The position numbers and the translations under genes are program-made. The notes under the pieces are model-generated. The model did not search any database. It was not told where the DNA came from and saw only the letters and a list, made by a program, of their open reading frames with translations. 64,000 nt of DNA, taken from the NCBI GenBank assembly GCA_024345305.1, contig BRON01000001.1, positions 496,001 through 560,000 on the forward strand, given 5' to 3'. The DNA comes from Mrakia gelida (Eukaryota; Basidiomycota; Tremellomycetes; Cystofilobasidiales; Mrakiaceae). Shown in pieces: positions 10,301 through 13,300 of the stretch; position 1 is the stretch's first letter, and each line of letters begins with the position of its first letter.

Positions 10301-13300
10301 ACTCACGCGCTGAACTCCCATCCTCGCTACGTTTGCCCCTCCTCGCAGATTCCTCGTCTCGTCGGGTGAGTCCTCGCTCGAAGAGCTGGCCTCTTGTCCT
10401 GAAGCTGACTCGCCCTCCCTCCCTTCGCCCTCCCCATTCTCTCGCTCCAGTGTGCATGATCGCGACGTTCGCCTCGTACGCGTTCCTTCAGGGAGAGTCC
10501 GTAACACCGAGCACGATCTTTTCTACAGTCGCTGTGTTCGAGATCTTGGCCGTCGCTCTTCGTGAGTGACTCGGATCCGTTCGCTCGTCGATTCATCTGG
10601 TACTGACGCGTCGTGGGTTGCTCTCCCTCAGGCGCTCTCGTGAGTCGACGGTGCCAAAGCAGCAGACACTGATCCAAACGCTGACTTAATTTTCCCTCTC
10701 GACTAGTTCTACGAACTCGGTCAGGTCGTTCGAGCAAAGGTCTCGCTCGATCGACTCGACGTGTTCCTCCACGAGGTGAGCCCGTTCTACTCTGACGAAA
10801 GTCCCCTCAGCAGCTGAACCCCTTGCCTCTACATCCTTTGATACCAGTCCGAAGTCATCGACGCTTTCGACGAGGACCGAATCGTCCCACCGCAACCCGA
10901 ATCAACCTTCATCGGCTTCAACAACGCGACCTTCGCCTGGCTTCGAGAGGAGAAGGCAGACAAGAACGTTCGGAACTTCAGACTTCACTTGGACGTCGAG
11001 TTCGTCCCTGCAAAGATCAACTTGATTTCAGGAGCTACTGGATCTGGGAAGTCGAGCGTTCTCGCTGCTCTTCTTGTGAGTCAACCTTCTCCTCCCTCTC
11101 TCGCCTCGACACTCGTGCTGACTTCCTTCTTTTTCTTCTTTTTCAGGGAGAGATGCACTTCGAACCCAGCTCCCTCGACTCGAACTACAACCTTCCTCGA
11201 TCTGGAGGTAAGTCCATCTCCTCGAGCGAAGAAAGTCGCGTCGACACTCCGCTGACCTCTTTCCTCTTCGTGTCGCCTCAGGAATCGCCTTCTGCCCTCA
11301 AGAGCCTTGGTTGATGAGCTCGACCATCAGGGAGAACATCACGCTCAACCTTCCCTACGATCCTGCTCGTTTCAAGCGCGTCATCCACGCTTGCGGACTC
11401 ACTCGAGATCTAGAACTGCTCGCCGGTGGAGATCAAACGGAGGTCAGCTCAAGGCTCCTTCTTCCCTTCCCTTTCTCTCCTCCTTATTGACTCTTCTTCT
11501 TCAATGACAGGTCGGAGAGAAGGGGATCACCCTCAGTGGAGGACAGAAGGTTCGTCGAGTCCTTCGCCTCGCTTGTCCTTCTCAACTGACCTTTGACGCG
11601 TCTTGTCGCCCTTTCCTCCTCGCAGGCTCGAATCACCCTCGCTCGAGCCATCTACAGCAACGCTCAGATCATTCTCATGGACGATGTCCTTTCGGCTCTA
11701 GACGCTCACACTGCGAAATGGATCGTGGAGGAGTGAGGTCCCCTTCATGGAAGCTCGATCGTCTTCGAGCAGTTCGACTGACCTCTATTTCTCTCCCTCT
11801 TCTCGTCGCAGGTGTCTCTCCTCCGACCTCATCCAAGGTCGAACTGTCATCATTGCCTCCCACCACATCTCGCTCATCACACCCGTCGCTTCGTTCATCC
11901 TTCGTCTCGGTCGAGATGGGCATGTCGAAGCCCAGGGTCCTGTCGAGAAGGTCATTCGGGAGAACGCTGAGGTTGAGAAGGAGCAGGAAGATGTGAGTGG
12001 TGACTTAGTTTTCAGCATTGGACCGAGGAGAGAGTGAGGCTGATCGCATCTTCGTCGTCAAACTCTCCAGGACGCTCGAGTCATCAACGAGGAGGACGAC
12101 GACGCGACGGAGAAGCCTGCTGCTCCCTCGAAGGCCGACGTTCTCGTTCAAGACGAGGAGAAACCTGTTGGCAAGGTCACCTGGAAGGCTTATCGAGAGT
12201 TCATGGATGGTCTAGGGTGAGTACGCTCGTCTTGGAGCTCGTTCGGCCTTGCTCAAACTGACTTCCCTTTGCTTCGAACTTCAGATGGCGAACTCTCGCT
12301 ATCTTCCTCGTTACGATCTTCATTCAGGAGATCGGAAAAACCGCTGCAACTTGGTGGCTTGGAGCTTGGGGAAACCAGGTGAGTCCATTCGCTGTTCGGT
12401 CTGGATCAGCACGGGAGAGGAAGCTCGACTGACCTCTTCCCTCCCTCCGTCCCTCGCCTCGTTCCAGTACGAGAAGCACGACCAGCGAGACGTATCGATC
12501 ATCTACTGGCTCGGATTGTACACTGCGATCTCCCTCGTCACCATCCTGATCTACTCCTACGGTCAATCCTCCTTCTTCATCGGCGCCGTCGGAGCTTCGA
12601 GACATCTCCATGTCAAGCTCGTCAAGTCGATTCTGTGAGTTTTTCCTCGCCAATCCCGGTGGATCACGATTTAGTGGAGCTAACTCGATATCTCCTTTTC
12701 TTTGGATAGCTCCTCAAGTGAGTCTCGACCCTCAAGGAACGCCACTGGAAGAGTGAGAGAACAAACTGACGCGTCTACCCTTCCTCGACCCCTCAGCTTT
12801 CCGATGGCTAGACGCGACGCCCGGTGGACGGATCATCGCTCGGTTTAGCAAGGACATGCAGGCTATCGACGGAGCCTTCACCGTCTTCTTCTCCCAGTTC
12901 ATTGAGATTTGTGCTATCCTGGCGAGTCGCGCTCTTCGTTTCGATTTGAAGGTAGCCAGCGAAACAAAACTGACGCTGCTCTTCTTGCTACCGCTCTTCG
13001 CAGATTGTCAGAATCGCGAGCATCGTGATCTCTGTACCTATCTTCTTGGTCCCCTCTATCGTGCTCGGTCTCATCGGAACTGCTCTCGGTGAGTCTCGCA
13101 CGGCGAGCAAGCTCGCTGATTTCGGGTCTGATCGTCTCTCTGTTCTCCGCGTCAACAGGCGAGATGTTTACTCATGCCCAGCTGAGCGTGAAGGTATTTA
13201 AGATATATCTTGAAGAGCTCGTTTCTCGATCTGACACAATCTTGGCTTGCCTTTTACGACCACGACAGCGAGAAACGTCAAACGCGAAATCGCCTCTCTT

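Follow-up and report, generated by a model that had tools for sequence, protein, structure and literature searches.

A near-identical 1.33-kb tract, introns included, points to recent gene conversion between inverted ABCC transporter genes of Mrakia gelida

Introduction

Gene conversion between paralogs is a well-known process, and in fungal ABC pump genes it is already in print: the passages of PMC6053246 used here describe it for the ABC11/ABC1 pair of Candida krusei (Pichia kudriavzevii), two genes in direct tandem that the title of the cited 2017 paper calls PDR transporters. The present work concerns another such pair, genes A and B of the basidiomycete Mrakia gelida, which lie in a window of 64,000 nucleotides (the whole stretch of DNA analysed, from contig BRON01000001.1, here C1) and share a 1329-bp tract. 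Unlike the C. krusei genes, they are ABCC-type, inverted, 41 kb apart and intron-rich, and outside this one tract they are 78% identical. In the red/green opsin genes, treated together with theory in the portion of PMC3924837 drawn on here, conversion homogenises most of the pair while a selected region stays diverged; that region is a single exon, whereas the diverged islands of the Mrakia genes measure about 1.2 and 1.8 kb, and selection might possibly guard them. The Tigriopus genes GOT1p1 and GOT1p2 form a mosaic of high and low divergence with apparent ongoing gene conversion (PMC3728101, partial text), a case built on population data, in contrast to the one genome available for the Mrakia pair. 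On chromosome 1 of Aspergillus flavus and A. oryzae, conversion among ectopic paralogs of one region goes with gene splitting and loss (PMC12844118, partial text), whereas both Mrakia genes read through. Avian ABCG2, considered as a further precedent, was dropped, as the relevant part of PMC7362505 reports no clear evidence of conversion. No conversion in a fungal ABCC pair was found among titles and abstract openings, a weak negative because closed journals lay outside the scope of the search, and the terms 'gene conversion' and 'ABC transporter' are absent from the main text of PMC12749792. The Mrakia tract is a clean, well-resolved case of an event that is ordinary for close paralogs.

Results

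A whole-genome search placed the window at C1:496001-560000 of a 34,857,517-base, 25-contig assembly. Genes A and B are inverted and convergent within it, and the features on which the analysis rests are as follows (exons, E, and introns, I, are numbered along each gene).

Gene A: 7375..15455, forward strand; full ABC transporter of the ABCC type; the model has 40 exons and stays open down to a TGA stop at 15453-15455.
Gene B: 59167 to about 51092, reverse strand; full ABC transporter of the ABCC type; the model has 39 exons and likewise stays open.
Tract copy in gene A: 11312..12640, forward strand; 1329 bp from most of exon 16 to exon 22, with six bases of the next intron and six whole introns.
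Tract copy in gene B: 53989..55317, reverse strand; reverse complement of 11312-12640 with one mismatch.
Sole A/B difference within the tract: 12008, forward strand; G in gene A, A on the aligned strand of gene B (partner 54621), inside intron I19.

The two tract copies, 41 kb apart on one contig, are identical at 1328 of 1329 positions without a single indel, and the coordinates, length, orientation and lone substitution (12008/54621) given for them in a preliminary description of this DNA proved exact. The first mismatches outside the tract stand at 11311 on the left and 12641 on the right. The left end lies inside exon 16, and beyond the mismatch at 11311 some 30 further bases are identical before intron I15 diverges, which makes that end uncertain by about as much; on the right, the last six bases form the splice donor after exon 22, and as this is a conserved signal the copied stretch may really stop a few bases short of 12640. 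Genome-wide the block was found twice, and two fragments of a third paralog, on contig C7, matched it at 71% and 70% identity (the search scores the best candidates only). In gene A the tract corresponds to residues 843-1131 of the protein, starting just after CPQEPW (residue 837; Q-loop) and including LSGGQ (894; signature), IILMDD (914; Walker B) and SHH (951; H-loop); the Walker A of the first nucleotide-binding domain (NBD1), at residue 798, lies outside. Besides these NBD1 motifs, the tract spans the linker and two hydrophobic helices at the start of the second transmembrane domain (TMD2).

Comparison exon by exon and intron by intron confines the identity to this block. Exons E17-E22 are identical in the two genes and E16 matches at 160 of 161 positions, while the six introns inside the tract (I16-I21) together agree at 457 of 458 bases. 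Identity by maximum length in the remaining 32 introns is 56-88%. On the same measure, 224 unrelated intron pairs used as a null gave a mean of 59.0% (standard deviation 6.7, maximum 73.2). Intron I22 (12635-12709), immediately after the tract, scores 62.7% and falls within the unrelated-pair range, in line with its earlier characterization as unrelated beyond the donor, and the clearly homologous introns outside the tract (I03, I04, I07, I14, I15, I31-I33 and I35) reach 81-88%. Overall, 5035 of 6444 ungapped sites outside the tract are identical (78.1%), at which level the probability of at most one mismatch in 1329 sites would be about 10^-140, assuming independent sites. Many of the outer exons differ in codons and residues, as had been noted, and the pair of ten-residue peptides offered as an example is present in our models.

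Synonymous sites follow the same course. Inside the tract there is no synonymous change over 288 codons, with none of 148 fourfold-degenerate sites differing, versus 189 of 597 such sites outside (0.317); the proportion of synonymous differences (pS) ranges from 0.21 to 0.46 across the remaining five segments and the synonymous divergence (dS) outside is 0.25-0.70, dropping abruptly to zero at the block. A stretch of two paralogs that is far more alike than its flanks, that ends abruptly, and whose likeness reaches introns and fourfold sites is the pattern by which interlocus conversion is recognized. Given the abrupt ends, the near-perfect introns and synonymous sites and the divergence of the genes to either side, a recent copy event, as originally proposed in preference to slow evolution or selection on the protein, is the simplest reading: very likely, the tract records a recent interlocus (ectopic) gene conversion of about 1.33 kb between inverted ABCC paralogs, probably from B to A and without crossover. 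Among the roughly neutral sites of the tract (458 intronic and 148 fourfold), 1 of 606 differs (0.0017, 95% confidence interval 0.00004-0.0092); set against 0.317 at the fourfold sites outside, this makes the event roughly 0.5% as old as the fourfold divergence between the genes, with an upper limit near 3% (uncorrected for multiple hits).

Both genes were modelled by spliced alignment guided by protein P0001 of Mrakia frigida, a species placed in Cystofilobasidiales; these models replaced earlier ones based on codon bias, one artefactual split was merged, and the end of gene B was set by hand at the next in-frame stop. Neither gene contains an internal stop or frame break once GC-AG introns are allowed, and the reading frame is continuous across both tract ends in both. 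The GC-AG introns of the models have the donor GCGAGT and lie at 12922-13003 and 14427-14498 in gene A and at 57562-57488 in gene B, the partner gene having a GT donor at each place. A Pfam scan of protein B, with which protein A aligns along its length, matched PF00664 (ABC_membrane) and PF00005 (ABC_tran) in two stretches each, and motif positions and hydropathy give the order TMD1-NBD1-TMD2-NBD2. Among the best 60 of 540 PDB matches, ABC transporter C family member 2 came first, then ABCC4, MRP1, ABCC3, ABCC2, YCF1 and other ABCC proteins, with CFTR last. Judged by sequence, A and B are ABCC (MRP-type) full transporters.

Among the best 120 of 2029 matched proteins, the closest relatives are P0001 and P0002 of M. 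frigida, the other 118 being at most 39% identical. Protein B is identical to P0001 at 1369 of 1617 positions and protein A at 1268 of 1603. The third paralog (C7:1896375-1904317), modelled with 33 exons free of internal stops but with an uncertain N-terminus, matches P0002 at 1413 of 1653 positions and is its probable ortholog by sequence; depending on the segment, the protein it encodes shares 54-80% identity with A and B. P0001 carries 22 residues after MSVK that are missing in P0002, and A and B have an intron at that place; the public annotation of P0001 seems to retain an intron.

The relation to P0001 also bears on the direction of the transfer. Of the 88 sites that distinguish A from B in E6-E13, P0001 shares the residue of B at 60 and that of A at 14; of the 45 such sites in E23-E30 it sides with B at 37 and with A at 3. 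The corresponding counts are 27 versus 15 of 62 in E1-E5 and 4 versus 2 of 9 in E14-E15, and in E31-E39 they are even (6 and 6 of 14), A being no faster than B there. Gene A thus looks like the faster copy in the transmembrane cores. It is mainly in these two cores (9016-10775 and 12710-13867) that the protein of A has changed, E31-E39 showing no excess, and for the cores the pairwise dN/dS values are only 0.29 and 0.22. When the identity of the tract to P0001, stratified by conservation, was scored at B-like versus A-like rates, B-like rates were favoured by 14.8 log units with E6-E15 and E23-E30 as flanks and by 9.0 with all flanks. The NBD parts of the tract are uninformative in this respect and only the TMD2 part is really informative: E21-E22 are identical to P0001 at 74 of 87 residues, a stretch in which P0001 and P0002 share 40 of 87, and at least 74 matches would be expected with p=0.0036 at the rate of A in E6-E13 (72.2%). 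Because the tract is B-like relative to P0001, most strongly in E21-E22, the direction was probably from B to A.

Divergence outside the tract is uneven rather than uniform, and four further segments of gene A can be set apart.

Exons 1-5: 7375..8939, forward strand; N-terminal region, A-B protein identity 84.1%, I02-I04 alignable; candidate older conversion.
Exons 6-13, diverged island 1: 9016..10775, forward strand; core of the first transmembrane domain, B partner 57487-55863, pS 0.455, most introns near the unrelated level.
Exons 23-30, diverged island 2: 12710..13867, forward strand; later part of the second transmembrane domain, B partner 53919-52775, pS 0.398.
Exons 31-39: 13928..15464 (model end; stop at 15455), forward strand; NBD2 region, 95.1% protein identity, introns mostly alignable; candidate older conversion.

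Protein identity between A and B is 84.1% in E1-E5, 71.2% in E6-E13, 90.7% in E14-E15, 77.6% in E23-E30 and 95.1% in E31-E39, the corresponding values for B and P0001 being 79.0, 86.6, 86.6, 89.6 and 87.5%. These figures qualify one element of the preliminary description, namely that the copy event left both pumps with one shared coupling segment: the tract does span the NBD1 motifs, linker and first TMD2 helices listed above, yet the copy did not create the shared engine, since E31-E39 with NBD2 and E14-E15 with the start of NBD1 are close already. Inside the first island, the gene A model has an intron at 10241-10348 without counterpart in B, where exon 56397-56284 is continuous, perhaps through intron gain or loss.

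A possible, though rather doubtful, explanation of this unevenness is that A and B form a modular pump pair under repeated conversion, with tracts of several ages that keep the N-terminus, both ATPase domains and the linker alike, the 1329-bp tract being the latest; the transmembrane cores, where the substrate path is expected, would then be islands in which conversion is absent or selected against. Intron similarity falls with the local amino-acid difference (codons within 250 bases of each intron, a measure independent of the segment limits; rho -0.54, p=0.0013, none of 31 circular shifts as low), and it does so equally without I14-I23 (n=28, rho -0.54, p=0.003, 1 of 27 shifts as low). This covariation favours something more than selection on the protein, which alone should leave the introns untracked. 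Island introns are also less similar than the others (p=0.0002, 14 versus 14, leaving out I16-I21 and the border introns I05, I13, I22 and I30), pS is 0.455 in E6-E13 versus 0.276 in E31-E39, and a segmentation of the 32 outside introns with four breakpoints, a number chosen by us, cuts at I05, I14, I22 and I31 (permutation p=0.034, 1000 permutations). As the segment limits were drawn after viewing the intron table, the group test and the agreement of the limits are not independent evidence.

Other tests weigh against older conversions. Intron autocorrelation was not significant (p=0.19 and 0.18), nor was patchiness in windows of fourfold sites (p=0.28), nor the difference between exons flanked by alignable introns (45 of 174 fourfold sites differing) and by null-like ones (41 of 118; Fisher p=0.12). 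Quick trees of 14 proteins join A with B in E1-E5 and E31-E39 (support 100 and 99), where a grouping of B with P0001 is rejected by the approximately unbiased (AU) test (p=0.0008 and 0.004); the E6-E13 and E14-E15 trees did not resolve (for E6-E13, support 39, and AU p=0.26 for A with B). In E23-E30 A again groups with B (support 92; p=0.051 for B with P0001), on branches of 0.274 for A and 0.014 for B, and the long A branch is better explained by rapid change in A than by greater age, which also counts against older conversions. As a firm claim older tracts were rejected, given the non-significant autocorrelation and fourfold tests and the joining of A and B in the E23-E30 tree. Polarised sites place B with P0001 at 9, A with P0001 at 2 and A with B at none in E6-E13, and B with P0001 at 4 and A with B at 5 in E23-E30. 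A duplication of A and B before the split from M. frigida, suggested by the E6-E13 sites, was likewise set aside, the tree of that segment giving no resolution and the E23-E30 sites being divided 4 to 5.

To gauge the frequency of such tracts, a 200-kb portion of this contig (C1:96001-296000) was surveyed for self-matches of at least 150 bp with E values up to 1e-10, which returned four pairs: one diverged inverted, one inverted with a 429-bp identical run, and two short. The diverged inverted pair (about 2.3 kb) holds no tract, its longest identical run being 38. The 429-bp run lies at C1:268088-268516 (2088-2516 of locus L031), its partner within 4621-5210 of the same locus, so that the inverted copies are about 2 kb apart, and the 150-base windows beside it are 86% and 72% identical. 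With one of four pairs in 200 kb carrying such a run between less similar flanks, conversion-like tracts may not be rare on this contig. An Rfam scan of the 64-kb window found no family at gathering scores. Positions 1464-1497 are a run of 34 G, and of ten long open frames searched against Pfam two matched, a sugar-transporter piece (PF00083; 3906-4649, reverse strand) and an F-box protein (PF12937; 22673-23659, forward strand).

Discussion

Besides confirming the copied block, the analysis indicates that B was probably the donor, gives the event a relative age and offers grounds for doubting a crossover. A break in gene A would have been repaired from gene B as template without crossover, by synthesis-dependent strand annealing or through a double junction resolved without exchange; gene A would now carry B sequence from just past the NBD1 Q-loop to the first TMD2 helices, and the one difference would have arisen since the copy event.

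Inverted repeats of such length and identity are good substrates for crossover, and crossover usually leaves a converted stretch too. An exchange between the inverted copies that flipped the 41 kb between them, with the block as its site, nevertheless appears very unlikely: it would put the two fast transmembrane segments on different genes, and both are on A. Because the fast segments to the left and right of the tract sit on the same gene, non-crossover conversion is favoured. It is very unlikely, too, that the reads of one gene served for both loci over the block during assembly or polishing. The two copies differ at one base, the frame continues across both tract ends, and paralogs at 78% identity are easily separated by long reads. 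The assembly (GCA_024345305.1; 25 contigs, 34.9 Mb) combines long and short reads, PacBio Sequel plus Illumina, according to the section of PMC12749792 that describes it; the evidence base is a single assembly all the same, which leaves such an artefact some room. That everything derives from one assembly of one strain likewise weighs against conversion as reconstructed here, as do three assumptions behind its details. The donor test supposes that the sequence lost from A had diverged like the flanks of A, yet E31-E39 of A are no faster; the argument against crossover would not hold had each flank sped up in a different gene ahead of an exchange; and calling A fast presupposes that the split between A and B is younger than that from M. 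frigida, a point left undecided by E6-E13.

Two explanations that dispense with a copy event can be given practically no weight. Strong selection holding the segment identical in both genes might be invoked for a stretch with conserved NBD1 motifs, but it is refuted by the introns, which agree in all but one base, and the fourfold sites do not differ either; moreover, E31-E39 with NBD2 differ at 40 of 154 fourfold sites, and the tract segment itself differs from P0001 of M. frigida at 14.7% of residues. A young duplication of the whole gene, followed by fast change of A outside the block, draws on the E1-E5 and E31-E39 trees, whose joining of A and B implies sequence shared there after the M. 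frigida split. It is scarcely credible against the strong divergence of introns and synonymous sites outside, and the abrupt ends of the block refute it, just as the diverged flanks rule out an identity running smoothly through the whole gene.

The finding is mainly of use as a test case. The tract offers a relatively datable conversion in an intron-rich basidiomycete, in which the introns serve as a neutral yardstick and an outgroup protein points to the donor. Should the older mosaic be true, the pair would allow the question of which parts of a transporter tolerate homogenisation and, hence, which parts set substrate choice.
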